From assembly GCF_003111665.1 (NCBI RefSeq), contig NZ_CP022188.1, positions 1,054,001-1,118,000 of the forward strand: a DNA stretch of 64,000 nucleotides, given 5' to 3'. Every line of letters starts with the position of its first letter. Position 1 is the stretch's first letter. Source of the stretch: Parazoarcus communis (GTDB lineage: Bacteria > Pseudomonadota > Gammaproteobacteria > Burkholderiales > Rhodocyclaceae). This document shows positions 15,340 to 42,164 of the stretch, piece by piece. The notes beneath the pieces were generated by a model. That model ran no database searches, was not told where the DNA came from, and saw nothing but the letters and a program-made list of their open reading frames with translations. Both the position numbers and the translations under genes were made by a program.

Positions 15340-15427
15340 GAGCGACTCCTTGAGTTTTCAATCAAACCGTCGGCAAGCAGACGGTCGTGCCTGCGATTGC
15401 GACGGGCGGGGTGATGCTCCACTGCTG

Positions 15428-15523
15428 GAGAAGGTCGGGTGTGTTTGCGTAAGGGCGAGGACTGTCCGAGCGAGTGACACGAGCGAGTTCCGCAGCCCTG
15501 GAGCAAATACACCCGACCTTCTC
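15428..15523. repeat. Large hairpin repeat with 46-nt core, copy 2 (urtB-urtC spacer)
   Basis: The 46-nt core at 15453-15498 is identical to copy 1. Here the flanking arms, 15428-15448 and 15503-15523, pair over 21 bp with one non-Watson-Crick position, so the whole element can fold into one long hairpin. Arm sequences differ from copy 1, sharing only an inner cGGGTGT-like part. Confidence 0.85.
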
Positions 15524-15544
15524 ACTCGTGGCACTGCACCAGAA

Positions 15545-17164: not shown

Positions 17165-17346
17165 TGCAGGCTCCATCGGATCATCCGCCCAAACAGGGCG
17201 AAGTCGGAACAATCAATTACGGCCGGGCCAAGGTGAGTCCCCTGGCCGGAAAACACGGCTCCGGGCACATCCCCGGAGCACAGCCCGGCGCGACACATGC
17301 GCAGCGGGCACCGGCAAGCGTCAGATGACGATCGCCGGTCCTTTCA

Positions 17347-18603
17347 TCAAAGCCCCTGCTTGCCTTCGTTGCCGGCAATGAACGGGCTCCAGGGCTGGGC
17401 ACGGATCGGCGACTTCGTCTTCCACACCACGTCGAACTGACCGTCGGCGCGCACTTCACCGATGTAGACCGGCTTGTGCAGGTGGTGGTTGGTCTTGTCC
17501 ATGGTCAGGGTGAAGCCCGACGGTGCCTTGAAGGTCTGGCCGCCAAGCGCAGCGATCACCTTGTCGGTATCGGTGCTCTTGGCCTTCTCGACCGCCTGCT
17601 TCCACATGTAGATACCGACGTAGGTCGCTTCCATCGGGTCGTTGGTGACCACGGTGTCGGCGTTCGGCACACCGTTCTTCTTCGCCCAGGCCTTGTACTT
17701 GGAGATGAAGGAATCGTTCTCGGGGTTCTTCACCGTCATGAAGTAGTTCCAGGCGGCAAGGTGACCGACCAGCGGCTTGGTATCGACGCCGCGCAGCTCT
17801 TCTTCACCCACCGAGAACGCCACCACCGGCACGTCCGTCGCCTTCAGGCCAGCGTTGCCCAGTTCTTTGTAGAAGGGCACGTTGGAGTCGCCGTTGATGG
17901 TCGAGATGACCGCCGTCTTCTTGCCTTCGGACGCGAACTTCTTGATGTTGGCGATGATGGTCTGGTAGTCGGAATGGCCGAAGGGGGTGTAGTCCTCCAT
18001 GATGTCCGACTCGGCCACGCCCTTGCTCTTGAGGAAGGCGCGCAGGATCTTGTTGGTCGTGCGCGGATACACGTAGTCGGTGCCGAGCAGCACGAAACGC
18101 TTGGCCGAGCCGCCCTCTTCGCTCATCAGGTATTCCACGGCGGGAATGGCCTGCTGGTTGGGGGCAGCACCGGTGTAGAACACGTTCTTCTCAAGCTCTT
18201 CGCCTTCGTACTGTACCGGGTAGAAGAGCAGACCGTTGAGCTCCTTGAACACCGGGTTCACCGACTTGCGGCTCACCGAGGTCCAGCAGCCGAACACTGC
18301 GGCCACCTTGTCCTGCGCCACGAGCTGGCGGGCCTTCTCGGCGAACAGCGGCCAGTTGGAAGCGGGGTCGACCACCACAGGCTCGAGCATCTTGCCCATC
18401 ACGCCGCCCTTGGCGTTGATCTCTTCGATCGTCATCAGCGCAACGTTCTTCAGCGCGGTCTCGGAGATGGCCATCGTGCCCGAGAGCGAGTGCAGGATGC
18501 CGACCTTGATGGTGTCGGCTGCATGTGCGCCAATCGGCGCGCCGATCGCTGCAATGGAAGCGGAAAGGGCCAGTGCCTTGATGAAGCTGCGACGAGTCTG
18601 CAT
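17347..18603 (-). CDS. urtA: Urea-binding periplasmic protein UrtA
   Basis: Periplasmic receptor of 418 residues. The signal peptide carries a twin-arginine motif (TRRSFIK) and ends near residue 28 (GAHAAD), so Tat export is likely. The mature start IKVGILHSLSGTMAISE and the segments GCWTSVSRKSVNPVF and YPVQYEGEE are typical of UrtA rather than amino-acid receptors. First gene of urtABCDE. Its 115-nt leader contains a GCATTGC/GCAATGC hairpin (18634-18653) and the palindrome at 18684. Confidence 0.94.
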   Translation of the reverse strand: MQTRRSFIKALALSASIAAIGAPIGAHAADTIKVGILHSLSGTMAISETALKNVALMTIEEINAKGGVMGKMLEPVVVDPASNWPLFAEKARQLVAQDKVAAVFGCWTSVSRKSVNPVFKELNGLLFYPVQYEGEELEKNVFYTGAAPNQQAIPAVEYLMSEEGGSAKRFVLLGTDYVYPRTTNKILRAFLKSKGVAESDIMEDYTPFGHSDYQTIIANIKKFASEGKKTAVISTINGDSNVPFYKELGNAGLKATDVPVVAFSVGEEELRGVDTKPLVGHLAAWNYFMTVKNPENDSFISKYKAWAKKNGVPNADTVVTNDPMEATYVGIYMWKQAVEKAKSTDTDKVIAALGGQTFKAPSGFTLTMDKTNHHLHKPVYIGEVRADGQFDVVWKTKSPIRAQPWSPFIAGNEGKQGL

Positions 18604-18683: not shown

Positions 18684-18699
18684 TACGCAAGATTGCGTA
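18684..18699. promoter_or_regulatory. Perfect palindrome upstream of urtA
   Basis: TACGCAA-GA-TTGCGTA, 7-bp arms with a 2-nt centre, 81 nt upstream of the urtA start. It has the form of an operator for a dimeric regulator; the regulator is unknown. Confidence 0.4.
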
Positions 18700-26800: not shown

Positions 26801-27766
26801 CTAGGCACCCTCGCTCGCGGCGCGGATCTTTGCCATCGCCATCGACGCTGCGGCCGTGCGGGTTTCGACGCCAAGCTTCTCGAACACATGTTCGAGGTGC
26901 TTGTGCACCGTGCGCGGGCTGGTGCCGAGAATGTCGCCGATGTCGCGATTGGTCTTGCCTCGGATCACCCAGTACAGCACCTCGGCCTCGCGCCCGGTGA
27001 GGCGGAAGGCTGCAATCAGGGCCTCGATCGCGCTGGCGTCGTTCTCTTCGCGCAACACCACCAGCCACTCTTCGTCGCCAGTCTGATCGTGGAACGAGGC
27101 CAGCAGGCGACGTGCGCCTTCGCTCGCCACCAGGCCGGGCACCTCACGACGCTCGCGCCGCGCGAGTTCGGCAGCCATGATCCAGTCGAGCAGGCGCGGC
27201 GGTGCAATCTCGCTTGGCTCGCTGCGCCCGGGCTCGAACCAGCTGCGAATCAGCTGGCGTGCCAGCGGGGTCTGCCATACCAGGCGCCCATCGCTTGCTC
27301 GCACCGCGACCGTTGCCTGGCCGAAGGCATCGAGGGCGCTGCGGGCCTGCTTCATCTGACGCGCGTTCTGTACATGGGCAGCAATGCGGGCGAGCACCTC
27401 GGCGGGCTTGATCGGCTTGGTCACGTAGTCGGCGCCGCCGGCGGCAAACGCCGCGACCACATGCTCGGTTTCCGTGAGTCCTGTCATGAAGATGAGCGGG
27501 ATCGCGCGGGTCGCAAAATCGGCCTTGAGCCGCCGGGCAACCTCGAAACCGTCCATGCCGGGCATCAGCGCATCGAGCAGCACGACATCGGGCAGACTCT
27601 GGCGCGCACGCGCAATCGCGCTCTCGCCATTGGTGGCGACCAACACCAGATAGCCGGCTTCGTCGAGCGCATCGTGCAGCAGCGCGAGATTCTCGGGCAC
27701 GTCGTCCACGATCAGCACGATGCCTGCAGCAGCGGGGTCAGCAGCACTCAGGGCAGATGGGCTCAT
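26801..27766 (-). CDS. Response regulator, receiver plus LuxR-type DNA-binding domain
   Basis: A 321-residue regulator. The receiver domain has acidic D21/D22, phospho-acceptor D65 (VVLLDALMPGMDG) and the Lys in YVTKPIKP. A middle region of about 125 residues (PAS-like in position) precedes a LuxR/GerE helix-turn-helix (LTGREAEVLYWVIRGKTNRDIG). The ATG at 27766 overlaps the kinase stop (ATGA), so the cognate partner is the permease-kinase fusion upstream. An alternative ATG at 27790 lies inside the kinase gene. Confidence 0.9.
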   Translation of the reverse strand: MSPSALSAADPAAAGIVLIVDDVPENLALLHDALDEAGYLVLVATNGESAIARARQSLPDVVLLDALMPGMDGFEVARRLKADFATRAIPLIFMTGLTETEHVVAAFAAGGADYVTKPIKPAEVLARIAAHVQNARQMKQARSALDAFGQATVAVRASDGRLVWQTPLARQLIRSWFEPGRSEPSEIAPPRLLDWIMAAELARRERREVPGLVASEGARRLLASFHDQTGDEEWLVVLREENDASAIEALIAAFRLTGREAEVLYWVIRGKTNRDIGDILGTSPRTVHKHLEHVFEKLGVETRTAAASMAMAKIRAASEGA

Positions 27767-30700
27767 GATTCCGGCAAGTCCTTGCGACACAGTATTTCGC
27801 GCATGGCGTCGAACTGGAACTGACGCGCGAGTTCGCGCTGCACCCGCACGAACTCGGCATACTCGGGTGCCATGCGTTCGATATCAGCCAGCCGGGCAAG
27901 AATACCGCGCAGGAAGCCTAATTCGATCAACTCGTCGAGCGCCCGCAGCTCGGCGGCCGGGGGCAGCACCAGTTGTTCCACCTCGACCGTGGGCACGCTT
28001 TCCGCAGCCGCGGCCGGCGCATCTGCCCACACCCATTCGAGCTGCAGGCGGCGACCGATCCAGTCGAGCAGCTCCTCCACGCGGATGGGCTTGAGGATGA
28101 AGTCCTCCGCGCCGATCCCGACATCGTGATCCAGCCCCTTGTCGAACGCATTGGCCGAGATGATCGCCACCGGCGCCTCGTCGAGCCCGGCTGCGCGCAG
28201 CCGCCGGATGGTTTCCCAGCCGTCGATGCCGGGCATCGCCAGGTCCATGAAAATCAGATGGGGGCGGAAATGGGGCACCAGTTCGAGGCAGTCATAGCCG
28301 GACTCGGCCTGACCGACCTCGAAGCCGAGTGGCTCGAGCAGATTCGCCAGCAGTTCGCGGTCGACACGCTCGTTATCCACCGTGAGAATGCGCCGCCGCA
28401 CACCTTTGTAGCCAATGCGCTGAACGCGCGGCAGCACCTCCGCCGCCTGCGCGTCGTGCAGTTGCGGCAGAAAGAGGCGGACGCGAAACACGCTGCCGGC
28501 GCCGGGCTGGCTGTCAACGGTGAGCTCACCCCCCATCAGGTCGGTGAGCATCTTGCTGATCGTCAGCCCCAGCCCGGTGCCCGTCGTCGTGCTGCCGCGG
28601 GCACTGCTGCCGCGGGCGAAGGGCTCGAAGACATGCGCGATCTCGTCTGCAGCGATGCCGGGGCCACTGTCTTCGACCTCGAACAAGGCCATCTCACGGC
28701 GGTAGGTCAGGCGCACGCGAACCGTGCCGCGCGCGGTGAATTTCACCGCGTTGCCGATGATGTTGATCAGGATCTGGCGCAGACGCTTTTCGTCGGCGCG
28801 CACGAACTCCGGCAGCGTGCCAACGATCTCGAAGTGGAAGCCGAGCCCCTTGTTGCGCGCCTGCAGCTCGAACATGGCCACCAGCTGGCGCACGAACTCG
28901 GCGAAGGCCAGCGGTCGCATCTCGAGTGCAAACTTTCCGCCCTCGATTCGGGCAATGTCGAGCGTGCCCTCGATCAGCGACAGCAGGTGCTCGCCGCTCC
29001 TGCGAATCACGCTCACCGCCTGCCGTCGCTGCGGCGGGATGGCCTCGTCACCGTCGAGAATCTGCGCATAGCCGAGGATGCTGTTGAGCGGCGTGCGCAA
29101 TTCGTGACTGATCGAGGTGACGTAGCGGCTCTTGGCCTGATTGGCCTGCTCCGCCACGCGACGCGCGTTCTGCAGCTGCTCGTCGGTACGGCGGTGGGAT
29201 TCGATTTCTTCCATCAGCAAGCGGGTCTGGCGGTTCGACTCCTCCTGCGCCACCTGCCGGCTCTTGTGCGTCAGCACCATCCACCACGCCGCAATACCGC
29301 CCATCAGGAACAGGGCGGCAAAGGCCTTGAGCAGTACGCCCTTCAGATCGCCCCGCAGCATCTCCCCGGGATAGCCGGCGGCCAGGTCGACACTGCGCGC
29401 GATCAGCTCATGGTAGTAGAGCGTGCCGAGCAGCAGACCGAGAAAGGCGGTGATTCCGATCATCAGCAACAGATAGTGACCGAGCCCTGCATCGAGATAG
29501 GGCAACAGGGATTTCGGCAGCAGTTTCTGCAGCAGCTCAGACCATTGCACTGACAGGCGTGCATGGGGTTTGCACTGATCTTCGCAGCGCGCATCGAGCG
29601 AACAGCACAGCGAACAGATCGTGCCCTGATAGGCCGGGCAATGACTGGTGTCCTCGGGCTCGAAGTGCTGCCCGCAGATGCAGCACTGGCGGGTCGCCAC
29701 CCAGGCCTTGCCACCGGTGTTCACCGGCTCGGGCGTCCGCGCGAGGTAGTAGCGCCCCTTGGTCAGCCAAGCGATCAGCGGCGAGGTCAGCAGGGCCACA
29801 ACCAGTGCCACGAAGGGCGCATAGGGCTGCAACCCGGGGCCGAACAGGCCGATGAAGGTGCTCACCGACAGCGCAGAGGCGATCAGCATGGCGCCGACGC
29901 CAACCGGGTTGATGTCGTACAGGTGGCTGCGCTTGAACTCGATGCCCGGTGGCGACAAGCCGAGCGGCTTGTTGATCACCAGATCCGCCACGACTGCGAT
30001 CATCCACGAAATGGCAATGTTGGAATACAGCCCGAGCACCTGCCCAAGGGCCTGGAACACGTTCATCTCCATCAGCAGCAGGGCGATCAGGATATTGAAC
30101 ACCACCCAGACGACGCGCCCGGGGTGGCTGTGGGTCAGCCGCGAAAAGAAGTTCGACCACGCCAGCGAGCCGGCATAGGCGTTGGTGACATTGATCTTGA
30201 GCTGCGACACGATGACGAACAGCGCCGTCACCACCACCGCCCACAGGCTGCTGTCGAACACCGCAGAAAAACCGAGCAGATACATCTGATTGGGATCGAC
30301 GGCCTTGTCCGGCGCCATGCCATTGCGCAACAGCATCCACGCCAGCAGGGCGCCGCCCAGCATCTTGACCACGCCGATCAGCACCCAGCCCGGCCCGCCC
30401 AGCACCACGCCGAACAGCCAGCGCCAGCGATTGGTTGCGGTGCGCGCCGGCATGAAGCGCAGGTAGTCGGCCTGCTCGCCCATCTGGGTAATGAGCGCGA
30501 TGCCGACGGTCATGGCGCCCGCGAAGAGGTGAAAGTCGAATGCCCCGCCCTGCCCGTCGACGCCGGGGTATTGCCACAGACCGGCCAGCGCCGTCGGCTC
30601 CTCGCGCAGCAGGAAGAAGAAGGGCAGCGCGAGCAGGAACAGCCACACCGGCTGGGTCAGGGTCTGCAGCTTGCTGATCACGGTCACGCCATGCGTGACC

Positions 30701-31251
30701 AGCGGTATCACCACCAGCGCGCAGATCAGGTAGCCCCAGCTTGGCGGAATGCCGAGCGCCATCTCGAGCGCATAGGCCATGATCGCCGCTTCGAGTGCGA
30801 ACAGGATGAAGGTGAAGGAGGCGTACACCAGCGAGGTGATGGTCGAGCCGATATAGCCGAAACCGGAACCGCGGGTCAGCAGGTCCATGTCTACGCCATA
30901 GCGCGCGGCATAGAGGCTGATCGGCAGACCGGTGAGGAAGATGATGAGGCCGATCGCGAGGATGGCCCAGAAGCTGTTGATGAAGCCGTAGCTGACCAGC
31001 ATGGTCGCGCCGACCGCTTCGAGCACCAGAAAGGACGCCGCGCCGAACGCGGTGTTGCCGACGCGGAACTCGGACCACTTGCGGAAGCTGCGCGGGGTGA
31101 AGCGCAGCGCGTAGTCCTCGAGCGTTTCGTTGGCGACCCAGGTGTTGTAGTCGCGCCGGATCTTTACCACCCGCTGTGGCGCAGCGCCGTGCCGGTCCGC
31201 CTGCGCGTCAGCATCAGGAAGGCGGTCGGAAGGGGAGTCGGCAGCGTTCAT
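27763..31251 (-). CDS. Nucleobase-permease / histidine kinase / receiver fusion protein
   Basis: A 1162-residue membrane sensor. Residues about 30-510 form a 12-helix NCS1-type (purine/cytosine permease-like) transporter. About 519-561 is a cysteine-rich segment with nine Cys (CCICGQH, CSLCC, CEDQC), probably metal-binding. Two further helices (about 590-640) lead to a coiled coil, the H-box ISHELRTPLNSILGY (His near 715), the ATP-binding domain (VEDSGPGIAAD, GTGLGLTISKM) and a receiver with phospho-Asp in FMDLAMPGIDG (about 1002). A permease fused to a kinase suggests direct sensing of a transported nucleobase-like ligand; this is inference. ATGA-coupled to its regulator. Confidence 0.88.
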   Translation of the reverse strand: MNAADSPSDRLPDADAQADRHGAAPQRVVKIRRDYNTWVANETLEDYALRFTPRSFRKWSEFRVGNTAFGAASFLVLEAVGATMLVSYGFINSFWAILAIGLIIFLTGLPISLYAARYGVDMDLLTRGSGFGYIGSTITSLVYASFTFILFALEAAIMAYALEMALGIPPSWGYLICALVVIPLVTHGVTVISKLQTLTQPVWLFLLALPFFFLLREEPTALAGLWQYPGVDGQGGAFDFHLFAGAMTVGIALITQMGEQADYLRFMPARTATNRWRWLFGVVLGGPGWVLIGVVKMLGGALLAWMLLRNGMAPDKAVDPNQMYLLGFSAVFDSSLWAVVVTALFVIVSQLKINVTNAYAGSLAWSNFFSRLTHSHPGRVVWVVFNILIALLLMEMNVFQALGQVLGLYSNIAISWMIAVVADLVINKPLGLSPPGIEFKRSHLYDINPVGVGAMLIASALSVSTFIGLFGPGLQPYAPFVALVVALLTSPLIAWLTKGRYYLARTPEPVNTGGKAWVATRQCCICGQHFEPEDTSHCPAYQGTICSLCCSLDARCEDQCKPHARLSVQWSELLQKLLPKSLLPYLDAGLGHYLLLMIGITAFLGLLLGTLYYHELIARSVDLAAGYPGEMLRGDLKGVLLKAFAALFLMGGIAAWWMVLTHKSRQVAQEESNRQTRLLMEEIESHRRTDEQLQNARRVAEQANQAKSRYVTSISHELRTPLNSILGYAQILDGDEAIPPQRRQAVSVIRRSGEHLLSLIEGTLDIARIEGGKFALEMRPLAFAEFVRQLVAMFELQARNKGLGFHFEIVGTLPEFVRADEKRLRQILINIIGNAVKFTARGTVRVRLTYRREMALFEVEDSGPGIAADEIAHVFEPFARGSSARGSTTTGTGLGLTISKMLTDLMGGELTVDSQPGAGSVFRVRLFLPQLHDAQAAEVLPRVQRIGYKGVRRRILTVDNERVDRELLANLLEPLGFEVGQAESGYDCLELVPHFRPHLIFMDLAMPGIDGWETIRRLRAAGLDEAPVAIISANAFDKGLDHDVGIGAEDFILKPIRVEELLDWIGRRLQLEWVWADAPAAAAESVPTVEVEQLVLPPAAELRALDELIELGFLRGILARLADIERMAPEYAEFVRVQRELARQFQFDAMREILCRKDLPES

Positions 31252-31352: not shown

Positions 31353-32795
31353 TTACTTTGCGGCGCCCAATTCCTTCAGGGTTTTGGCCAGCAGCGCGGC
31401 CTTGTCGATCTGCAGCGCAGCCGGCGCATCGGGCGGGCACAGGGTGGCGGGGTCGATACCGTCGCGGTCCTGTCCTGCATCGACCGCGCTTGGCAAGTCC
31501 TCGCGTGCCACATCGAGCGCGCGCATCAGGTGCCCCATCCCCGACAGGGTGCGAGCTTCGGCGGTCAGACCGTCGTAGCGCGCATTGGTATAGGCACGGC
31601 GGGCCTGAAAATACTCGTTTTCGGTATCGAGCAGGTCAAGCAGGGTGCGCTGACCGATGTCGAACTGGCGACGGTAGGCCTCGCGCGCTTTCTCGATCGA
31701 CAGTTGATGCTGATCGAGATAACGCAACTGCTCCTGGATTCGCTGTACGTCGTTGTAGGCAATCGCCACCGTTTGCCGCAGATCGCGACACGCCTTGTCG
31801 CGCAGATCCTTGGCCTGGTTCAGCGATTCGGCAGCCTGCCGAATGCGGGCGTCATCCGACCCGCCGCGAAACAGGTTATAGGTCAGCACCAGTTCCACCA
31901 CGCCATCGCGCGAACGCCCGTCAAGGTTGTCGAGGTTGCGGTCGACCGCCTGGCTGGCGCGCAGGTCCACCCGCGGGTGGTAGGCCGCACGGCGGGTTTC
32001 GATCGCAGCCTGGCCTGCACGCACATTCTCGACTGCGGCATTGAGCGAAGGGCTGGTGTTGAAGGCTTCACGCAAGGCATCACTGGCACTCGGCGGAATA
32101 CCCTCAACGCCGAGTTTGTCGCCCATCGGTGGCAGAGCGTCGGCCGGCAATTCGCCCACCACGCGCTGATAGCGGCTGCTGACATCGTGCAGGTTGGACA
32201 CTTCGGTCAGCAGGTTGGACTCTGCCAGCGCCAGACGCCCGGTCGCCTGCTCGAGATCCACCCGGCGGCCGACACCGGCCCCGGCGCGCTCTGCGATCTG
32301 GTCGTACACCAGCTTGTGTTCGACATAGTTCTGCTTTGCCAGCGCAACCAGGTCGCGATAGCGCTGCACGTCGGCATAGGCGCGTACCGCCTCGAGCGCA
32401 GCCGACTCGGAGGCGTCGATGATTTCGTAGTATCGGGCCAGACGGGCATAGCCGAGGCGGGATACCTCGCTGCGGGTATAGAAGCCGTCGTACACCATCT
32501 GGTTGAGCGACAGCGTGGCATTGCTATGCGTGTAGTGATCCGTCGAACTGCCCGGGCGCTTCTGGCTTTCACGGCCAATGCTGGTCGTCACATCAACCTG
32601 CGGCAGGTAGCCACCCCGCGCGGCATCCTGGTCGGCGCCCGCCGCACGAAACGCGTGCCAGCGTGCCTGAACCTCCGGATTGCTCACCACGGCCTTGCGC
32701 GCAGCATCACGCAGCGGCTCGGGCGCCGACGCAGCCGCTGCAACGGGCAGGCTCGCCAGGACCGCAAGTGAGACCAGGGTACGAATTCGTTTCAT
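31353..32795 (-). CDS. lapE: TolC-family outer-membrane channel of the type I secretion system
   Basis: A 480-residue outer-membrane exit duct. The ATG at 32795 has GGAG 7 nt upstream and starts a signal peptide (about 1-22, AAASA). Two long coiled-coil repeats (about 30-215 and 240-440) with RVDLEQATGRLALAESNL and RTLLDLLDTENEYFQARRAY (in parts) are typical of TolC/LapE. It works with LapB and LapC to secrete the adhesin. Divergent from lapG; separated from the lapCB genes by the adhesin region. The LapE assignment rests on the Lap context. Confidence 0.85.
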   Translation of the reverse strand: MKRIRTLVSLAVLASLPVAAAASAPEPLRDAARKAVVSNPEVQARWHAFRAAGADQDAARGGYLPQVDVTTSIGRESQKRPGSSTDHYTHSNATLSLNQMVYDGFYTRSEVSRLGYARLARYYEIIDASESAALEAVRAYADVQRYRDLVALAKQNYVEHKLVYDQIAERAGAGVGRRVDLEQATGRLALAESNLLTEVSNLHDVSSRYQRVVGELPADALPPMGDKLGVEGIPPSASDALREAFNTSPSLNAAVENVRAGQAAIETRRAAYHPRVDLRASQAVDRNLDNLDGRSRDGVVELVLTYNLFRGGSDDARIRQAAESLNQAKDLRDKACRDLRQTVAIAYNDVQRIQEQLRYLDQHQLSIEKAREAYRRQFDIGQRTLLDLLDTENEYFQARRAYTNARYDGLTAEARTLSGMGHLMRALDVAREDLPSAVDAGQDRDGIDPATLCPPDAPAALQIDKAALLAKTLKELGAAK

Positions 32796-33065
32796 GGAAA
32801 CTCCGACACTTCTGAATATTGAATGGTTGGCGCTTCGCACAGCCCAACTTGAGCAGAGAGAATCATATACGGGTTGACGCATCGCACAATGCGCATAATT
32901 CAACGAATGTTTGAAGAATCGGCGCTGAAAGCACCTTTCGAAAGGCTCTCAGCGCATTAGCATGGGCGGATTCCCCCCGAAAAAACCTGAATTGTCGCCG
33001 TCACAAGAACAGCACAAGACGTCCCGATTCCGGATAATGCAGGCACAAGCACTCCTTGAGCACCA

Positions 33066-33776
33066 ATGCCCCTGTTCATCCGACTCCCGCTATCTGCCTG
33101 CCAGCCTCTGGGCAGATGCCGGCGTGCGGTGCAACGGACACTGCTCATGCTCACGGTCGCGATCGGTTTGTGCTCGGCGGCACCTGATCTCGATCACATG
33201 CAGACGCTTGCGCTGACCCGCTATGGCGCACAGGGCGGCGAGGCCGTCGCTGCGTGGCGCCGGATGATCAACGAAGCCCGGGAACTGGACGAAGCGGGCA
33301 AGCTTGCACGAGTGAACACCTTCTTCAACCGCCGGATCCGCTTCGAGGACGACATCGTTGTCTGGAAGCAATCGGACTACTGGGCCACACCGCTGGAGAC
33401 ACTCGGTCGCGACGCAGGCGACTGCGAGGATTTCTCGATCGCGAAGTACATGAGTCTGCGCCTGCTCGAGGTTCCTGCCGACAAGTTACGGCTTGTGTAC
33501 GTGCGCGCCCGCATCGGCGCCGCCGACAGCACCATCACCCAGGCGCACATGGTGCTCAGCTATTTCGAAACACCCAGTGCCGAGCCGCTGGTGCTGGACA
33601 ACCTGATTGGCGAGATCCGGCCAGCCGGCAGGCGCCCCGACCTGTTTCCGGTTTTCAGCTTCAACAACGAAGGGCTGTGGGTGGGCGGCACCAGCACCTC
33701 GTCCGCCGACCCCACTACCCGTCTGTCACGCTGGCGCGATGTACTCGAGCGCATGCGCAGCGAAGGCCTGAAATGA
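33066..33776 (+). CDS. lapG: Periplasmic adhesin-processing cysteine protease LapG
   Basis: A 236-residue transglutaminase-like cysteine protease. A hydrophobic export segment (about 24-38) is followed by the catalytic triad Cys120 (GDCEDFS), His161 (QAHMVLSY) and Asp178 (LVLDNL), with acidic neighbours fitting the calcium site. When c-di-GMP is low it cleaves the adhesin's N-terminal retention region and frees it from the cell surface. Adjacent to lapD, its inhibitor-receptor. The ATG at 33066 has a weak ribosome site; ATG 33147 is an alternative that would shorten the export signal. Confidence 0.92.
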   Translation: MPLFIRLPLSACQPLGRCRRAVQRTLLMLTVAIGLCSAAPDLDHMQTLALTRYGAQGGEAVAAWRRMINEARELDEAGKLARVNTFFNRRIRFEDDIVVWKQSDYWATPLETLGRDAGDCEDFSIAKYMSLRLLEVPADKLRLVYVRARIGAADSTITQAHMVLSYFETPSAEPLVLDNLIGEIRPAGRRPDLFPVFSFNNEGLWVGGTSTSSADPTTRLSRWRDVLERMRSEGLK

Positions 33777-33810
33777 ACACGTACCCGAAATTTCCCGGAG
33801 CACCCCGTCC

Positions 33811-35724
33811 ATGTCCCTGATCAAGCAACTCTGGATCGCCATCGTCATGGTCACCCTGCTATCCCTTGGCGGCAGCCTGGTGGTGAGCACGCTGGCGGCA
33901 AAGCGCTACCTCGAACAGCAACTCAACGTGAAAAACGTCGACAACGCCACTGCGCTCGCACTGTCACTGTCGCAGATGCCGAAGGATCCGGTCACCGTCG
34001 AGCTGCAGGTTGCCGCGCAGTTCGATGCCGGACACTACCGCGTGATTCGCCTGGTCGGGCCCGACGGCAACATCCTGGTTGAACGCACTGCCGAGCCCCG
34101 TCTCGACGACGTCCCAGCCTGGTTCGTACGCCTCGCCGCGATCGAGGCCCACCCCGGTATGGCGCACGTGCAGGACGGCTGGCAGCAGTTCGCCACCCTG
34201 ACGCTGGAAAGCCAGACCAGCTACGCCTACACCGAGCTGTGGCACAGCATTCGGCAGATGCTGTTGTGGTTCGCCATCATGGCGGCCGCAGCCGGCGTCG
34301 TTGGCAGTCTGCTGCTTGGTCGCATCACCGCGCCGCTGCGCAAGCTGGTGGGGCAGGCGGAGGCCATCGGCGAGCGCCGCTTCGTCACCACGCCCGAGCC
34401 CGCCACCGCCGAGTTGCGGGTCGTGGTGCGGGCAATGAATGCGCTCTCCGACCGCGTGCGTCTGATGCTGGTGGACGAAGCCCGGCGTCTCGAAATCCTG
34501 CGCAAGCAAACCCAGGAGGATGCCTTGACCGGACTGTTCGAGCGCCGGCAGTTCCTCAACGTCCTCGGTGCGCAGCTCGTCGACCATGATGCACCGACCG
34601 GCGGCGCACTGCTGATCGCACGCGTGGGCGATCTCTCCGACCTGAATCGCACCCGCGGCCGCGAATTCGCCGACGCCCTGCTGCGCGCGCTTGCAGATGC
34701 CATCCGCAGCCAGATCGGCGAGCAGCCGACATGGATCGCAGGGCGCCTGAACGGGACCGACCTTGCCGTTCTGGCCCCTGGCGTCGCCTATCTTCCGCTA
34801 TGGACCGAAGGCCTCGTCAAAGCCCTGCACGAGGTGGCTGAAAAACACGCATCGGGGGGTGACAACGCAGCCATCGCCCTGCCCATCGCAGCCGCCCTGT
34901 ATTCTCCAGGCGAAGCACTGCCGACGGTGCTGACACGCACCGATACGGCGCTGGCCGAAGCCGAACTGGCTGGCGGGCGGGCGGTTCAGCTCGACGCCTG
35001 GGTGCGCCTGACGCAGCCTCAGCGCGACCAGTCGCAATGGCATCAGCTCATTTCCAGAGCGCTCGATCAGCATGAACTCCGCCTTGAAACCTACCCGGTA
35101 CGGGATGGCAATGGCGCACTGTTGCACGTCGAGGCGCCGCTGCGCTTGCGGCTCGATGGCGAGTGGCGCGGCGTCGCCTATTTCATGCAATGGGCGGTAC
35201 GCCTCGAACTGATGGGGCACATCGACGCCGCGGTGGTAAGGGCTGCACTCGAACTCATTCGCAGCACCGGTCAGGCCGTCGCGGTCAACATCTCGTCCCA
35301 TGCCATCCGCAACGCCGGCTTCCTGGCCGATCTGCTGCATCAACTGGAGATGGCGCCCAACGAGGCGCCGCTGCTGTGGATGGAGGTCCCGGAACAGGAC
35401 GCTGCACGCAATCAGGCCGAGTTCCGCACCTTCTGTCTCGCCCTCAAGCCGCTGGCGTGCAAGCTCGGCCTGGAGCATGCCGGCCCGAACTTCAACGCGC
35501 TTGGCGACCTGCATGACCTTGGCCTCGACTACCTCAAGGTCGACGCTTCACTGCTGCGCGACCTGGACGGCAACAGCGGCAATCAGGCCTTCGCCCGCAG
35601 TCTGTGCATGCTGGCGCACGCTCTGGGCCTGACCGTGATCGCAGAAGGTGTTGATCACCCTGAAGCCGTCACGATGCTGAGCGATGTGGGCTTTGATGCC
35701 ATGACCGGCCCCGGCATCCGCTGA
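33811..35724 (+). CDS. lapD: LapD-type c-di-GMP receptor (degenerate GGDEF-EAL)
   Basis: A 637-residue inner-membrane protein: N-terminal helix, periplasmic LapD/MoxY-type domain (about 30-150), second helix, HAMP (about 170-230), then a GGDEF domain whose motif is degenerate (RLNGTDLAVL) and an EAL domain lacking the catalytic EAL (VEAPLRL). It should bind, not make or cleave, c-di-GMP and sequester LapG through the periplasmic domain. Starts 34 nt after lapG, in one operon. The C-terminal AEGVDHPEAV...GPGI is typical of the family. Confidence 0.92.
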   Translation: MSLIKQLWIAIVMVTLLSLGGSLVVSTLAAKRYLEQQLNVKNVDNATALALSLSQMPKDPVTVELQVAAQFDAGHYRVIRLVGPDGNILVERTAEPRLDDVPAWFVRLAAIEAHPGMAHVQDGWQQFATLTLESQTSYAYTELWHSIRQMLLWFAIMAAAAGVVGSLLLGRITAPLRKLVGQAEAIGERRFVTTPEPATAELRVVVRAMNALSDRVRLMLVDEARRLEILRKQTQEDALTGLFERRQFLNVLGAQLVDHDAPTGGALLIARVGDLSDLNRTRGREFADALLRALADAIRSQIGEQPTWIAGRLNGTDLAVLAPGVAYLPLWTEGLVKALHEVAEKHASGGDNAAIALPIAAALYSPGEALPTVLTRTDTALAEAELAGGRAVQLDAWVRLTQPQRDQSQWHQLISRALDQHELRLETYPVRDGNGALLHVEAPLRLRLDGEWRGVAYFMQWAVRLELMGHIDAAVVRAALELIRSTGQAVAVNISSHAIRNAGFLADLLHQLEMAPNEAPLLWMEVPEQDAARNQAEFRTFCLALKPLACKLGLEHAGPNFNALGDLHDLGLDYLKVDASLLRDLDGNSGNQAFARSLCMLAHALGLTVIAEGVDHPEAVTMLSDVGFDAMTGPGIR

Positions 35725-35730
35725 GAACGG

Positions 35731-35763
35731 AAAAAGGGGGGCGAGCCCAAAGGCCCGTCCCCC
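35731..35763 (-). terminator. Rho-independent terminator for the 35771-36100 gene
   Basis: A GC-rich stem of about 12 bp with one mismatch (loop CAAA) precedes, on the minus strand, a TTTTT run. It lies just past the stop of the small minus-strand gene and 6 nt from the lapD stop, so it may serve both directions. Confidence 0.65.
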
Positions 35764-35770
35764 TGCGGGT

Positions 35771-36100
35771 TCAGATCAAGCCACCATCGTCCCCGTTGCC
35801 CAGCAGATTCAGTCCGCTGCGCATCGAGGCGCGCAAGGACTTGCGCTCCATGAGCTTCGCCTGCGCCTGTTCGGGCAAGTCGGTGAAGCGGATGACATCA
35901 CGCTCGATCAACAGATCGACGATATCTTCCAGCACCCGGACCAGTCTCAGGTCGGATGCCGTCAGGGTGGCATCGCTCGCCTCCCCCTGCCCAAAAGCCA
36001 GCAGCTCCGGCTCGCCATCCTCAACCCACTCGCTGATCGCGCCATCAGCCTCAAGGCTGGCAGACACGATGCGTCCCGCTTCATCACGCCTTACGAACAC
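35771..36100 (-). CDS. Small conserved protein (misnamed 'tryptophan synthase beta-like' family)
   Basis: A 109-residue soluble protein with no signal peptide. The segment DLRLVRVLEDIVDLLIERDVIRFTDLP (parts around residues 50-76) followed by EQAQAKLMERKSLR is recognisable from a conserved proteobacterial family carried in databases under the misleading name 'tryptophan synthase subunit beta like'. Function unknown. It follows the adhesin gene by 30 nt on the same strand. Confidence 0.7.
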   Translation of the reverse strand: MFVRRDEAGRIVSASLEADGAISEWVEDGEPELLAFGQGEASDATLTASDLRLVRVLEDIVDLLIERDVIRFTDLPEQAQAKLMERKSLRASMRSGLNLLGNGDDGGLI

Positions 36101-36130
36101 GCATCCATCCTCCGGAAAAAGACTGCTGCA

Positions 36131-39100
36131 TCATTTGTCGATCAGAAGCTGATTATTGGTGATGAGCTGATTAATGATGTCATGACTGCTCAGCGCACTG
36201 TCGAAGGTCACATTCTCCAGCACGATGGTCTGATCCTCCGCGCCCGCCGAGTACCCTCCCGCAAAACCGCCACTGCTGCTGACATGCAGCACGGTATTGC
36301 CAGAAACCTGCTCGACACTCAGGAAGTTGTCGATCGTTGCACTGCTTTCGTCCTTAAGCAGATCGGCCAGATCCAGACGGTCGGCGGTGCCGGTACCGTC
36401 ATAGATGCCGACGGTAAAGTCACCAACGGTGTCCACCGCGGGGTTCCCTGCCGTGCCGCCATCGTTGAGCTTCCAGACGAAGGTGTCGGCGCCGAGATCG
36501 CCAAGCAGACTGTCATTGCCCGCACCACCCCGCAAGGAGTCATTGCCGGAACCGCCCGACAACAGATCGTCGCCCGCGGCACCCACAAGCTCGCTGCCCG
36601 GCGCCACAGTGTCTGCGGTCCCAACGATGATCGTGAAGCTCTTTACCGACAGCGCGGTGTCGCCGTTGGGCTCGACCGAACTGGCGCTCACTTGCAGCGC
36701 GAAATCCGTGGATGATCCGCTCGGCGGCGTAACCGTCAGCGTCGATGTATCCCAGCCTGCAAGGCTGAGCACAGCGTCTGCAGACGAGGATGAGTATTCG
36801 TTTCCGCTGCCATCGCGCAAAACCGAACCTGCAGGAATGCCGCTCATGCTCAGGCTCGACAAGGCTTCGGAGTTATCCTGGTCCTGCGCGAGCACGGAGA
36901 TGTCGATCGGATAGCGCGTCTCCAGCACTGGCTGTGTGGTACCCACGTAGGTGAGCCCGGTGATGAAATAGTCGCTCCCGTCCCCGGTTTCGACGCCCGG
37001 CCCTTGTGCATAACCGCTTTGAGCCTTGAACACGACGGTGTCGAACGTCCCGCCGCCAGAAACAGACATCGTCACCGAACCCGTGTTCTTGTTGGCAGCA
37101 GCAACGAACGTCCCGCTCGCGACCAGTACGCCATTGCTGTACAGCTCGTAAATTCCCTGCTCCGACCGGCCTGCAACACCGTTGTCTTTCTCATACAGAT
37201 TCGAGAATGACGCCGTGGCACTGGTCAGCGCATAGTCGAACTTGAAAACAAGCTGCTCGGACGTGTCATGCTCATAGCTGTATCCGATCTGCGTCACGGA
37301 ACCGGGGTGTGTCCCTGTCGCACCGATCTTTCCCCCCCCAACATAGACGTTCGAAGCGGATACGGACGTCAGCTGCCCGGTCAACGGGTCAACGTTTGCA
37401 GCGCCAACCGTCACGCCCGACGTCGAGAACAAGTTCGAACTCGTCAGTGCGCCACTCACTGGTGTACCTTGCGAAACGGTAACCTGTACCGGACTTCCAA
37501 GCGCGACCGTGAACGATGCTGCATCGGCGATCGGCTCAATATCGATCGACAGGCTCTTTTCGGCACCGAGATCGCTGCCGTCGGTTGGCTTGAACGAGAA
37601 GCGCGCGTAATCAGCCTCTTTGTTACCAACTCCAGTCCCGCCAAAGACGTCGCTGCCCGACTCATCAGCGGCAGGGACGAAGCGCAGGCTACCGCTTGCA
37701 ATATCGGCCTGCGAAATCGTCTGATTCAGCGTCACATCCTGCCAACTGCCACCCGAGAAGACCTGCAGCACTCCATCTTCAGGCAACACAGTGACCTGAA
37801 TGCCAAGCGATGCCAGATCTGAATCAGCATCCGTGACGTTGAAGTCGGCCCAGGAGAATACGTAAGCCGTATCCTCGACGCCGAATACCGCGCCATCGGT
37901 CGCTGTCGGCGCGGCGTTGACCGGGGTGACCGTAATCACGCCCGTGGCCGGGGTGCCGTCTTCCAGACCCTGGTCATCGACCGAGGCGTAGGTGAAGTTC
38001 GTCTCGCCGTTCCAGTTCGCGTTCGGCACGAAGGTGACCGTGGCACCGTTGGCGGTGGCTGGGATCTCGGTGCCCACGGCGACCGGGTTGCCGTTGAGCA
38101 GCAGCGTGCCGTTGAGCGGTAGCGTCTTGATCACGAAGTGATCCACCGTGCCGTCAACGTCGCTACCGGACAGGCTGACCGGGATCGAGGCGGCGTCTTC
38201 TGCGCCGCTCGCGCTGGTCGCCGCGGTGTCCGGGGCGTCGTTGACCGGGCTCACCGTCACCGTGGCGGTGGCCGGGGTGCCGTCTTCCAGACCCTGGTCA
38301 TCGACCGAGGCGTAGGTGAAGTTCGTCTCGCCATTCCAGTTGGCGTTCGGCACGAAGGTGACCGTGGCGCCATTGGCGGTGGCTGGGATCTCGGTGCCCA
38401 CGGCGACCGGGTTGCCGTTGAGCAGCAGCGTGCCGTTGAGCGGCAGCGTCTTGATCACGAAGTGATCGACTGTGCCGTCCGGATCCGAGCCCGACAGGCT
38501 GACCGGGATCGCAGCGGCATCCTCTGCGCCGCTCGCGCTGGTCGTAGTGGTTTCGGGGGCGTCGTTGACCGGGCTCACCGTCACCGTGGCGGTGGCCGGG
38601 GTACTGTCTTCCAGACCAAGGTCATCGACCGAGGCGTAGGTGAAGTTCGTCTCGCCATTCCAGTTGGCGTTCGGCACGAAGGTGACCGTGGCGCCATTGG
38701 CGGTGGCTGGGATCTCGGTGCCCACGGCGACCGGGTTGCCGTTGAGCAGCAGCGTGCCGTTGAGCGGCAGCGTCTTGATCACGAAGTGATCGACTGTGCC
38801 GTCCGGATCCGAGCCCGACAGGCTGACCGGGATCGAAGCGGCATCCTCTGCGCCGCTCGCGCTGGTCGCGGCGGTTTCGGGGGCATCGTTGACCGGGCTC
38901 ACCGTCACCGTGGCGGTGGCCGGGGTGCTGTCTTCCAGACCCAGGTCATCGACCGAGGCGTAGGTGAAGTTCGTCTCACCGTTCCAGTTCGCGTTCGGCA
39001 CGAAGGTGACCGTGGCGCCGTTGGCGGTGGCTGGGATCTCGGTGCCCACGGCGACCGGGTTGCCGTTGAGCAGCAGCGTGCCGTTGAGCGGCAGCGTCTT

Positions 39101-42031
39101 GATCACGAAGTGATCCACCGTGCCGTCAACGTCGCTACCGGACAGGCTGACCGGGATCGAAGCGGCATCCTCTGCGCCGCTCGCGCTGGTCGCGGCGGTT
39201 TCGGGGGCATCGTTGACCGGGCTCACCGTCACCGTGGCGGTGGCCGGGGTGCTGTCTTCCAGACCCAGGTCATCGACCGAGGCGTAGGTGAAGTTCGTCT
39301 CACCGTTCCAGTTCGCGTTCGGCACGAAGGTGACCGTGGCGCCGTTGGCGGTGGCCGGGATCTCGGTGCCCACGGCGACCGGGTTGCCGTTGAGCAGCAG
39401 CGTGCCGTTGAGCGGCAGCGTCTTGATCACGAAGTGATCCACCGTGCCGTCAACGTCGCTACCGGACAGGCTGACCGGGATCGAAGCGGCATCCTCTGCG
39501 CCGCTCGCGCTGGTCGCGGCGGTTTCGGGGGCATCGTTGACCGGGCTCACCGTCACCGTGGCGGTGGCCGGGGTGCTGTCTTCCAGACCCAGGTCATCGA
39601 CCGAGGCGTAGGTGAAGTTCGTCTCACCGTTCCAGTTCGCGTTCGGCACGAAGGTGACCGTGGCGCCGTTGGCGGTGGCCGGGATCTCGGTGCCCACGGC
39701 GACCGGGTTGCCGTTGAGCAGCAGCGTGCCGTTGAGCGGCAAGGTCCTGATCACGAAGTGATCCACCGTGCCGTCAACGTCGCTACCGGACAGGCTGACC
39801 GGGATCGAGGCGGCGTCCTCTGCGCCGCTCGCGCTGGTCGCGGCGGTTTCGGGGGCATCGTTGACCGGGCTCACCGTCACCGTGGCGGTGGCCGGGGTGC
39901 TGTCTTCCAGACCCTGGTCATCGACCGAGGCGTAGGTGAAGTTCGTCTCGCCGTTCCAGTTCGCGTTCGGCACGAAGGTGACCGTGGCACCGTTGGCGGT
40001 GGCTGGGATCTCGGTGCCCACGGCGACCGGGTTGCCGTTGAGCAGCAGCGTGCCGTTGAGCGGCAGCGTCTTGATCACGAAGTGATCCACCGTGCCGTCA
40101 ACGTCGCTACCGGACAGGCTGACCGGGATCGAGGCGGCGTCTTCTGCACCGCTCGCACTGGTCGCCGCCGTGTCGGGGGCGTCGTTGACCGGGGTAACCG
40201 TGATCTCGGCCAGGGCCGGGGTGCTGTCTTCCAGGCCGTCGTTATCCACCGCGGCGTAGGTGAAGCTGGTATCGCCGTTCCAGTTCGCAGTCGGCACAAA
40301 GGTGATCGCGGCCGCGTTGCCGCTGGCAGGGATCTGGGTCGTGCCATCGATCGGCACACCGTTGAGCAACAGGGTCCCGTTGGCCGGCGGTGTCTTGATC
40401 ACGAAGTAATCCACCGTGCCATCCACGTCACTGCCCGACAGGCTCACCGGGATCGACGTCGCATCTTCCGCGCCGCTGGCACTGGTCGCAGCCGTGTCGG
40501 GGGCGTCGTTGACCGGGGTAACCGTGATCTCGGCCAGGGCCGGGGTGCTGTCTTCCAGGCCGTCGTTATCCACCGCGGCGTAGGTGAAGCTGGTGTCGCC
40601 GCTCCAGTTCGCAGTCGGCACAAAGGTGATCGCGGCCGCGTTGCCGCTGGCAGGGATCTGGGTCGTGCCATCGATCGGCACACCGTTGAGCAACAGGGTC
40701 CCGTTGGCCGGCGGTGTCTTGATCACGAAGTAATCCACCGTGCCATCCACGTCACTGCCCGACAGGCTCACCGGGATGCCCGCCGCGTCTTCCGCGCCGC
40801 TGGCGCTGGTGGCCGCCGTGTCGGGGGCGTCGTTGACCGGGGTAACCGTGATCTCGGCCAGGGCCGGGGTGCTGTCTTCCAGGCCTTCGTTATCCACCGC
40901 GGCGTAGGTGAAGCTGGTGTCGCCGCTCCAGTTCGCAGTCGGCACAAAGGTGATCGCGGCCGCGTTGCCGCTGGCAGGGATCTGGGTCGTGCCATCGATC
41001 GGCACACCGTTGAGCAACAGGGTCCCGTTGGCCGGCGGTGTCTTGATCACGAAGTAATCCACCGTGCCATCCACGTCACTGCCCGACAGGCTCACCGGGA
41101 TGCCCGCCGCGTCTTCCGCGCCGCTGGCGCTGGTGGCCGCCGTGTCGGGGGCGTCGTTGACCGGGGTAACCGTGATCTCGGCCAGGGCCGGGGTGCTGTC
41201 TTCCAGGCCGTCGTTATCCACCGCGGCGTAGGTGAAGCTGGTATCGCCGTTCCAGTTCGCAGTCGGCACAAAGGTGATCGCGGCCGCGTTGCCGCTGGCA
41301 GGGATCTGGGTCGTGCCATCGATCGGCACACCGTTGAGCAACAGGGTCCCGTTGGCCGGCGGTGTCTTGATCACGAAGTAATCCACCGTGCCATCCACGT
41401 CACTGCCCGACAGGCTCACCGGGATGCCCGCCGCGTCTTCCGCGCCGCTGGCGCTGGTGGCCGCCGTGTCGGGGGCAGCATTGACAGGTGTGCCCGTAAC
41501 CGGCGTCTCAGTCTCAGCCGTCGTCGTCACCGCCTGCGCTTCATCGGTTTCGTCTCCGGTAGCGCGCAGTTCAGGCGGCACAACTGCAGTCGATGCTTCG
41601 AATTCGAACTCGATCGGATCGACACCTTCGGTAATCCGCAGCAGACGTACGAAGTCATTGCCGTCACCACCGCCACCACCGGTCAGGCCGGCGGCCGGAT
41701 CCTCGAGCACGTCGTCGAGGTTGGTGCCGTCGTTGAGGGCCTGGATGACCTGCTGGATGGTGCCGTCAGCCAGTTGCGCTTCATTGGCCTGCGGACGGGT
41801 GGACTCGGAAAGGTCGGCTGAGATCAGGACGGCCTGGTCTTCACCGACCGGAACGATGCTGCCGTCGGCAACCACCAGGAGCTCGGCGCGAGCACCGGCT
41901 GCGGTCACGAGGGTCTCGCCTTCGAGCAGGGCGTCGCCAACCTTGAGCAGGCGGAGATTGCCCGCCTGGTCCCTGGCCTCTGCCTTGCCGGTGATACTGA
42001 CGACGGTTGCGACTGCCTTTGCGCTTGCCAT
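36131..42031 (-). CDS. Giant LapA-type RTX adhesin with retention module
   Basis: A 1966-residue surface adhesin exported by the type I system. The ATG at 42031 has AGGAG upstream. Order of parts: N-terminal retention module (about 1-110, VATVVSITGKAEARD... pattern) that plugs the outer-membrane channel; a PAAG cleavage motif (112-115) in the position used by LapG; Gly-rich linker; eleven 108-residue Ig-like tandem repeats (186-1373); a further Ig-like domain; a beta-rich ligand-type domain; and C-terminal RTX nonapeptides (DDLLSGGSGND, NDSLRGGAGND) plus the T1SS end. Held on the cell when c-di-GMP is high. Ends 30 nt before the next gene. Confidence 0.93.
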   Translation of the reverse strand: MASAKAVATVVSITGKAEARDQAGNLRLLKVGDALLEGETLVTAAGARAELLVVADGSIVPVGEDQAVLISADLSESTRPQANEAQLADGTIQQVIQALNDGTNLDDVLEDPAAGLTGGGGGDGNDFVRLLRITEGVDPIEFEFEASTAVVPPELRATGDETDEAQAVTTTAETETPVTGTPVNAAPDTAATSASGAEDAAGIPVSLSGSDVDGTVDYFVIKTPPANGTLLLNGVPIDGTTQIPASGNAAAITFVPTANWNGDTSFTYAAVDNDGLEDSTPALAEITVTPVNDAPDTAATSASGAEDAAGIPVSLSGSDVDGTVDYFVIKTPPANGTLLLNGVPIDGTTQIPASGNAAAITFVPTANWSGDTSFTYAAVDNEGLEDSTPALAEITVTPVNDAPDTAATSASGAEDAAGIPVSLSGSDVDGTVDYFVIKTPPANGTLLLNGVPIDGTTQIPASGNAAAITFVPTANWSGDTSFTYAAVDNDGLEDSTPALAEITVTPVNDAPDTAATSASGAEDATSIPVSLSGSDVDGTVDYFVIKTPPANGTLLLNGVPIDGTTQIPASGNAAAITFVPTANWNGDTSFTYAAVDNDGLEDSTPALAEITVTPVNDAPDTAATSASGAEDAASIPVSLSGSDVDGTVDHFVIKTLPLNGTLLLNGNPVAVGTEIPATANGATVTFVPNANWNGETNFTYASVDDQGLEDSTPATATVTVSPVNDAPETAATSASGAEDAASIPVSLSGSDVDGTVDHFVIRTLPLNGTLLLNGNPVAVGTEIPATANGATVTFVPNANWNGETNFTYASVDDLGLEDSTPATATVTVSPVNDAPETAATSASGAEDAASIPVSLSGSDVDGTVDHFVIKTLPLNGTLLLNGNPVAVGTEIPATANGATVTFVPNANWNGETNFTYASVDDLGLEDSTPATATVTVSPVNDAPETAATSASGAEDAASIPVSLSGSDVDGTVDHFVIKTLPLNGTLLLNGNPVAVGTEIPATANGATVTFVPNANWNGETNFTYASVDDLGLEDSTPATATVTVSPVNDAPETAATSASGAEDAASIPVSLSGSDPDGTVDHFVIKTLPLNGTLLLNGNPVAVGTEIPATANGATVTFVPNANWNGETNFTYASVDDLGLEDSTPATATVTVSPVNDAPETTTTSASGAEDAAAIPVSLSGSDPDGTVDHFVIKTLPLNGTLLLNGNPVAVGTEIPATANGATVTFVPNANWNGETNFTYASVDDQGLEDGTPATATVTVSPVNDAPDTAATSASGAEDAASIPVSLSGSDVDGTVDHFVIKTLPLNGTLLLNGNPVAVGTEIPATANGATVTFVPNANWNGETNFTYASVDDQGLEDGTPATGVITVTPVNAAPTATDGAVFGVEDTAYVFSWADFNVTDADSDLASLGIQVTVLPEDGVLQVFSGGSWQDVTLNQTISQADIASGSLRFVPAADESGSDVFGGTGVGNKEADYARFSFKPTDGSDLGAEKSLSIDIEPIADAASFTVALGSPVQVTVSQGTPVSGALTSSNLFSTSGVTVGAANVDPLTGQLTSVSASNVYVGGGKIGATGTHPGSVTQIGYSYEHDTSEQLVFKFDYALTSATASFSNLYEKDNGVAGRSEQGIYELYSNGVLVASGTFVAAANKNTGSVTMSVSGGGTFDTVVFKAQSGYAQGPGVETGDGSDYFITGLTYVGTTQPVLETRYPIDISVLAQDQDNSEALSSLSMSGIPAGSVLRDGSGNEYSSSSADAVLSLAGWDTSTLTVTPPSGSSTDFALQVSASSVEPNGDTALSVKSFTIIVGTADTVAPGSELVGAAGDDLLSGGSGNDSLRGGAGNDSLLGDLGADTFVWKLNDGGTAGNPAVDTVGDFTVGIYDGTGTADRLDLADLLKDESSATIDNFLSVEQVSGNTVLHVSSSGGFAGGYSAGAEDQTIVLENVTFDSALSSHDIINQLITNNQLLIDK
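37913..41476 (-). repeat. Eleven tandem 324-bp repeats in the adhesin gene
   Basis: Each unit encodes 108 residues beginning AP(D/E)TAATSASGAED and ending PVND. The first four copies (40181-41476) form one near-identical family (YFVIKTPPANG; PIDGTTQIPAS) and the next seven (37913-40180) another (HFVIKTLPLNG; PVAVGTEIPAT). Nucleotide identity inside each family is very high. Confidence 0.95.
41687..41698 (-). other. Predicted LapG cleavage motif PAAG in the adhesin
   Basis: Residues 112-115 of the adhesin read P-A-A-G, matching the (T/A/P)AAG LapG site, with cleavage expected between the two Ala. It lies directly after the retention module and before a Gly-rich linker, as in LapA. Confidence 0.75.
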
Positions 42032-42147
42032 GTTCTGCTCTCCTGATCTGCTGCCCCGTGCGCCAAAGCTGCGCATCGGGAAACGGGTTCGATGGCAGAC
42101 ACCTTATCGGGCTGCGTTCCCCGCCTCTATTGGACCAGTGGACAAGC

Positions 42148-42163
42148 CGTGACTTAGCTCACG
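42148..42163. promoter_or_regulatory. CRP/Vfr-like site upstream of the adhesin
   Basis: CGTGA-CTTAGC-TCACG is a perfect palindrome with the GTGA-N6-TCAC core of CRP-family sites, 117 nt upstream of the adhesin ATG and just past the LuxR-type gene stop. Confidence 0.35.
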
Positions 42164-42164
42164 C

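Follow-up and report, generated by a model that had tools for sequence, protein, structure and literature searches.

The SLC5-STAC kinases CbrA, CrbS and RpuS are described as an N-terminal LeuT-fold carrier joined through a linker domain to a histidine kinase (in passages of PMC7096432, PMC9100948 and PMC13022988), and motion derived from transport is thought to drive the kinase (PMC13022988, in part). Ks-Amt5, an ammonium carrier-histidine kinase, is likewise presented as a nutrient carrier turned sensor that has lost transport (PMC5764959, in part). In Acinetobacter baumannii, passages of PMC10112286 describe AmsS as a hybrid kinase with 14 transmembrane (TM) segments and a regulator overlapping it by 4 nt. 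The pair A1S_1393 and A1S_1394 is given as amsSR in a section of PMC11784087, A1S_1394 is named StkR in one of PMC9146086, and the two are tabulated with lengths of 3,465 and 960 in PMC6363711. With respect to urea uptake, a plasmid urea transport cluster with AmiF has been described (PMC5506382), and the terms sensor and histidine kinase are absent from the main text of that paper; in Dechloromonas aromatica, a 1131-aa histidine kinase and a 308-aa receiver precede UrtA, with no interpretation in the passages seen of PMC2907700. Our literature search, with most subscription journals outside it, found no report of an NCS1-kinase fusion as a urea sensor or of any urea-sensing kinase.

Here we characterized a permease-kinase gene in a 64,000-nt stretch of the Parazoarcus communis genome (NZ_CP022188.1, positions 1,054,001 to 1,118,000; hereafter the window). 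The gene, the parts of its product and the linked regulator, with the evidence for each, are as follows:

27763-31251, minus strand: permease-kinase fusion gene, 1162 aa (ORF with ATG start and no internal stop)
29737-31122, minus strand: NCS1-like permease core, residues 44-505
29566-29697, minus strand: eight-Cys module, residues 519-562, plus the unconserved C524 (conservation and model of the module)
29257-29514, minus strand: TM13-TM14 hairpin, about residues 580-665 (secondary structure of the AlphaFold model)
28936-29136, minus strand: HisKA, residues 706-772, with H716 (Pfam)
28468-28794, minus strand: HATPase_c, residues 820-928 (Pfam)
28063-28389, minus strand: receiver domain (Response_reg), residues 955-1063, with D1003 (Pfam)
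26801-27766, minus strand: response regulator with receiver and LuxR/GerE HTH, ATGA overlap (ORF and Pfam)

The regulator ORF, read from the ATG at 27766, has a 4-nt ATGA overlap with the kinase gene; an in-frame GTG at 27790 is an alternative start that would lengthen the overlap. The likely phospho-sites of the fusion are H716 in HisKA and D1003 in the receiver, and because the last histidine of the protein (residue 1042) sits inside the receiver, an Hpt motif is absent after it. The AlphaFold model (mean pLDDT 77.6), read by its secondary structure, predicts 12 core TM helices and two more beyond the Cys module. With residues 1-690 as a query, at least 7999 matches were obtained and, among the 120 matches listed, some were full-length relatives with 72-97% identity; matches in such number, full-length relatives included, indicate that the ORF is not due to chance. 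An earlier note, made from the letters of the window, had described an NCS1-like permease fused to a hybrid kinase, with a 12-helix core, a Cys segment, two helices, a kinase and a receiver in one 1162-residue protein, and a linked regulator overlapping the kinase by 4 nt. This description is borne out by the ORF, the three Pfam domains, the fold match to CodB and Mhp1, the AlphaFold model and the ATGA overlap. Immediately 5′ of the kinase start codon, between it and a TolC-like gene, lies an inverted repeat (31292-31258, minus strand) with 10-base arms, a 10-base loop and a T-run; although terminator-like, it was missing from a scan restricted to loops of 3-8. The region adjoining the kinase (31353-46428) is an apparent Lap-type adhesion locus with an outer membrane efflux protein, a Peptidase_C93 protein, a LapD/MoxY-GGDEF-EAL protein and a 1981-aa protein, as well as secretion genes, these judged from one ORF similar to ABC exporters.

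The permease core has a LeuT-type fold nearest to solved NCS1 carriers. The top structural matches of the AlphaFold model are CodB and Mhp1, over residues 44-534, whereas SLC5 structures score lower; the two carriers are 15-18% identical to the fusion, which differs from them in having the Cys module and the kinase. This strong NCS1 match is one of fold, not of sequence profile. PF02133 was not reached by the window protein, whose permease part has no Pfam match of its own, nor was it matched by any of 24 members of alignment A2 at E 0.1, and searches of solved structures by sequence (alignments A2 and A1, and the free-standing homologue L142) found no NCS1 relative. The matches of L142 to cytochromes among solved structures appear to be CxxC chance matches and were rejected. 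Since the protein's own sequence misses PF02133, we label it NCS1-like and not an NCS1 member. Among free-standing homologues, PF02133 (cut-off 23.5) was matched by L142 (45% identical; 31.8 bits) and L125 (29%; 36.4 bits), and L139 (53%) was unmatched. In comparison with the SLC5-STAC kinases, in which an SLC5 carrier precedes a STAC linker, the window fusion has an NCS1-like core, an eight-Cys module in the position held by STAC, and an extra TM hairpin. Pfam found no SSF (SLC5) domain in the fusion, which, together with its best folds, upholds the earlier view of a kind of sensor distinct from SLC5-type CbrA. Ks-Amt5 differs in its Amt fold, in its ammonium ligand and in having the kinase attached directly, with no PAS, HAMP or STAC linker in the account seen of it (PMC5764959). 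The NCS1-like fold could be taken to mean that purines, pyrimidines or cyclic ureides are sensed in a classic NCS1 pocket and that the urea genes simply act after ureide breakdown. Indeed, the nearest solved structures are a cytosine carrier (CodB) and a hydantoin carrier (Mhp1), and relatives are named purine-cytosine permease-like by one source; gene neighborhoods, described below, speak against such a ligand.

The segment between TM12 and TM13 holds nine cysteines (523, 524, 526, 538, 546, 549, 550, 556 and 560). Across 82 aligned family genes, position 524 was variable and each of the other eight was retained in 79 or 80; the exceptions were L100, truncated where its contig ends, the distant permease L125, which lacks the cysteines, and L142, at four positions. 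All eight were invariant in 41 of 41 rows of alignment A3. The segment that the earlier note singled out is therefore conserved in homologues, although as eight nearly invariant cysteines and not nine, C524 being unconserved. A long extra linker, which looks like translated dispersed repeats, lies between TM12 and the module in L212, L219, L177 and L116. When a profile of the module was run against 274 genomes, it found 20 places in 16 of them, 19 being family genes already found otherwise and the twentieth, in G485, beginning at a contig end. With the N-terminus in the cytoplasm, the module would face the cytoplasm as well. It is modeled as two strands followed by a helix, a predicted arrangement resembling treble-clef zinc fingers with weak fold matches, and it probably holds structural zinc. 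In the free-standing permeases of A. baumannii, Moraxella and L142, Cys 523, 526, 546 and 549 are present and the other four are absent, and the free-standing permease of L139 has all eight; this pattern suggests that one four-Cys set is tied to the permease and the second mainly to signaling forms. A different role for the module, as a sensor of a metal (zinc, for example, or the nickel of urease) through which the kinase is gated, would account for the near invariance of the eight cysteines and for the HupE/UreJ-type gene in some urease-linked loci. We regard it as very unlikely, given that the same eight cysteines occur in urt- and amidase-linked members without urease, and that three kinase-less free-standing permeases keep four of them, in line with a structural site.

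A regulator of the same cluster is present in 64 of 81 loci. Four scanned fused relatives depart from the HisKA-HATPase-REC plan: L143 has a PAS-PAS-kinase-REC output, L144 has PAS-GGDEF-EAL, and L121 and L147 have a kinase without a receiver. Because relatives couple it to different outputs, the permease-Cys unit can be seen as a portable sensor. A single genome holds both the gene with the c-di-GMP output (L144:6849-10520, minus strand) and the PAS-PAS-kinase-receiver gene (L143:8023-11841, plus strand), and two family genes, each followed by a regulator, lie about 6 kb apart in one genome (L141:3950-7372 and 13416-16817, plus strand).

When genes around family genes were clustered, the commonest neighbor clusters after the regulator were UrtA, UrtB, UrtC, UrtD/E, formamidase FmdA, aliphatic amidase and urease proteins. 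Identities were assigned by NCBIfam cut-offs for the window's five Urt proteins and for representatives of UrtA, UrtB, UrtC, FmdA, aliphatic amidase, UreC and UreG, and the remaining labels through cluster membership. Linkage to urt, urease or formamidase/amidase genes was found for 66 of 80 family genes (40 amidase-linked, 18 urease-linked and 8 urt-only), the other 14 having none within the stretch examined; the 80 are the 82 genes minus the truncated L100 and the Cys-less L125 (29% identical), and L136 had no called gene. Among 80 named closest loci, urt or urease was present in 58 and amidase in none at the thresholds used, and those with at least 19 kb of sequence had urt or urease in 44 of 57. 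On a tree of the permease part, the amidase label required 11 changes vs. a shuffled mean of 29.6 and the urease label 10 vs. 17.4; urease-linked rows occurred in several places, as did amidase-linked rows. This clustering suggests that there are urea-type lineages, the window's included, and amide-type lineages. Annotated records agree: on B. vietnamiensis pBVIE02 and K. pneumoniae pKPN3-307 the kinase is divergent from urt and formamidase genes, in S. meliloti it lies with urt, and in Mitsuaria with urease. A match was present in 534 plasmid records, of which 342 were from Klebsiella; in the one Klebsiella record opened (L245), the kinase is divergent from urtABCDE and formamidase. The window has its own urt genes, each with an NCBIfam match over cut-off:

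17347-18603, minus strand: urtA, urea ABC substrate-binding protein (TIGR03407)
15545-17212, minus strand: urtB (TIGR03409)
14140-15339, minus strand: urtC (TIGR03408)
13280-14143, minus strand: urtD (TIGR03411)
12316-13008, minus strand: urtE (TIGR03410)

These genes (18603-12316) are on the kinase's strand, about 8.2 kb away from it. In the source genome, a single urease alpha gene lies 6.2 kb below the start of the window, and there are two UrtB proteins over cut-off along with two permease-kinases, at kinase-UrtB distances of 11.3 and 1.7 kb; the second kinase (L083) is divergent from urtABCDE, FmdA and amidase. In a phylum sample of 398 genomes, 58 matched at 1e-5, of which 52 were taken as full sensors and five weak matches and one fragment were set aside. 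UrtB (E at most 1e-60) was found in 51 of the 52 full-sensor genomes, the exception being the draft G282, vs. 89 of the 346 others (Fisher p 2e-25, with kinship among genomes ignored). Since the family usually adjoins genes for urea or amide uptake or breakdown, sensing of urea or small amides and control of their uptake is probable. Of the purine, urea or allantoin genes that the earlier note had suggested looking for, urea genes were found, and purine or allantoin breakdown was not recognized by eye among the 30 largest neighbor clusters. Its proposed purine- or pyrimidine-like ligand finds no support in these neighbors. The same neighbors, the fmdA or urease genes that adjoin free-standing relatives, and a palindrome located at urtA make sensing of nucleobases or cyclic ureides unlikely.

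That palindrome was sought in the regions between divergent urtA and kinase genes. There, the dyad TACGT-N6-ACGTA was exact in 18 of 37, vs. 3 for the top dyad in 10 shuffles, and the core TACGYN6RCGTA was present in 27 of 37 (shuffled mean 0.02). One candidate operator lies in the window:

18684-18699, no strand assigned: candidate operator TACGCAAGATTGCGTA, 81-96 nt upstream of the urtA ATG, the only exact core match in the window

Among urtA genes that share at least 65% identity with that of the window, which are mostly outside the discovery set, 25 of 35 promoters also had the core, as did 31 of 42 other urtA promoters, which overlap that set; 10 of the 37 divergent and 10 of the 35 window-type promoters lack the palindrome. 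By comparison, none of the urtA promoters of 40 genomes with urt and without a sensor match had the core (56/77 vs. 0/40; Fisher p 5e-16, kinship ignored), so that, as computed here, the palindrome at urtA goes with the presence of the sensor. Second, unlinked urt operons of sensor-bearing genomes had the core in 3 of 20 cases (L308, L309 and L318), and each of these three genomes has a urease-linked sensor (L116, L103 and L122); for the 17 without the core, the sensors were amidase-linked in the ten genomes whose sensor neighborhood was covered. The 4.89-Mb source genome has 8 exact core sites vs. 46 for a reversed control pattern, and thus the evidence for the palindrome is its position, not its number. 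Two of the 8 sites are at the genome's two urtA promoters; of the others inspected, three are inside called genes and one (L258) has no overlapping called gene. Strict operator patterns allowing up to three mismatches did no better than chance in the window (18-base, 1 vs. 0.92 expected; 16-base, 5 vs. 4.33). The palindrome is absent from the kinase's own upstream region in the window and, since just one of the 68 regions upstream of kinases in the named closest loci has the core, autoregulation is unsupported in that clade. Dyads derived from those same regions were repeats resembling coding sequence and were discarded, and a comparison of regulator recognition helices was dropped as biased, its pattern fitting only 25 of 65. 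Farther afield, the core was found in the interval between A. baumannii amsS and the divergent permease, in the divergent regions of Klebsiella and B. vietnamiensis, upstream of S. meliloti urtA and in L139; it was absent upstream of the S. meliloti kinase, in Moraxella and upstream of the L142 permease, and two Mitsuaria stretches had no exact core.

Free-standing relatives of the permease part adjoin urease (L142) or fmdA (L139 and Moraxella). Within residues 30-505, 76 positions are common to at least 97% of 83 sensors and to 5 of 5 free-standing relatives, among them E154, Q256, E259, Q260, D262, N354 and N357. The two groups differ at the TM1 break, where sensors have F74, L77 and E78 and permeases have Y, D, and F or Q, respectively; further sensor-specific letters are A155 (G in permeases) and A360 (S in permeases). 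Judging from fold and position, these shared and sensor-specific residues would line the pocket. In two loci, a free-standing relative (L139:10267-11946, plus strand, and L243:8180-9826, minus strand) and a fused kinase point away from each other and the palindrome core lies in the gap, an arrangement in which the sensor may control its own carrier relative.

The second of these loci, from A. baumannii, holds two ORFs that overlap by 4 nt and, at 3465 and 960 nt, equal the tabulated lengths of A1S_1393 and A1S_1394; the free-standing relative is on the other side. AmsSR/StkSR of Acinetobacter thus belongs to the permease-kinase family and has already been studied genetically. Like the window system, it comprises a hybrid kinase with 14 predicted TM segments and a LuxR-type regulator overlapping by 4 nt; A. 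baumannii matches are about 50% identical over residues 11-690 of the window sensor, and the same palindrome core lies upstream. Unlike the divergent urt arrangement, the A. baumannii gene is divergent from a permease relative, and its phenotypes, as given in parts of PMC10112286 and PMC9146086, are metabolic or energetic (CCCP, pH, respiration) and colistin-related; the words permease and urea are absent from the main texts of both. In line with these phenotypes, the family could sense membrane energization, redox or quinone state, as suggested for AmsS, with urea genes as one output. Sections of PMC10112286 report that the amsSR promoter is induced by CCCP and in depolarized mutants and speculate on a lone conserved Cys as in ArcB, and the cysteines of the module are conserved. 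The phenotypes of AmsSR mutants may be indirect, though, and the conserved sensor core residues are common to free-standing permeases next to amide or urease genes, as expected of a solute site. Together with the occurrence of the sensor gene with urt in 51 of 52 sampled genomes, this makes an energetic or redox signal improbable in our judgment.

A permease-derived sensor of urea or a short amide, whose regulator controls urt, is the best reading of these data, and we hold it with good, though not high, confidence. Urea is the most likely ligand of the NCS1-like core, with a short amide resembling urea in its place in sister clades, and binding would shift the core's conformation. The eight-Cys module, probably cytoplasmic with its probably structural zinc, and the TM13-TM14 hairpin would relay the change to the kinase, which would signal to the LuxR-type regulator. 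The regulator, which we infer to be the palindrome-binding protein, would then bind the core at the urtA promoter and control high-affinity urea uptake, be it positively or negatively.

A broader proposal, which seems to us evenly balanced, is that a family of urea or short-amide receptors arose from NCS1-like permeases, with an eight-Cys module, specific to the family, in the place of CbrA's STAC, and controls urea or amide uptake in many Pseudomonadota. It would explain AmsSR/StkSR as well as the kinase by the urea operon of pKPN3-type Klebsiella plasmids; the free-standing relatives would be an undescribed group of urea/amide permeases, and the change at the TM1 break (L77/E78 vs. D and F or Q) would be the signature of a carrier having become a receptor. 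With this family, urea sensing has a candidate receptor, a candidate operator and a candidate target operon, and the few known fusions of a carrier to a kinase are extended by a further carrier fold. Where a free-standing permease and a sensor form a close pair, one can ask which changes make a carrier into a receptor, and AmsSR/StkSR of Acinetobacter gains a candidate direct target, the divergent permease gene.
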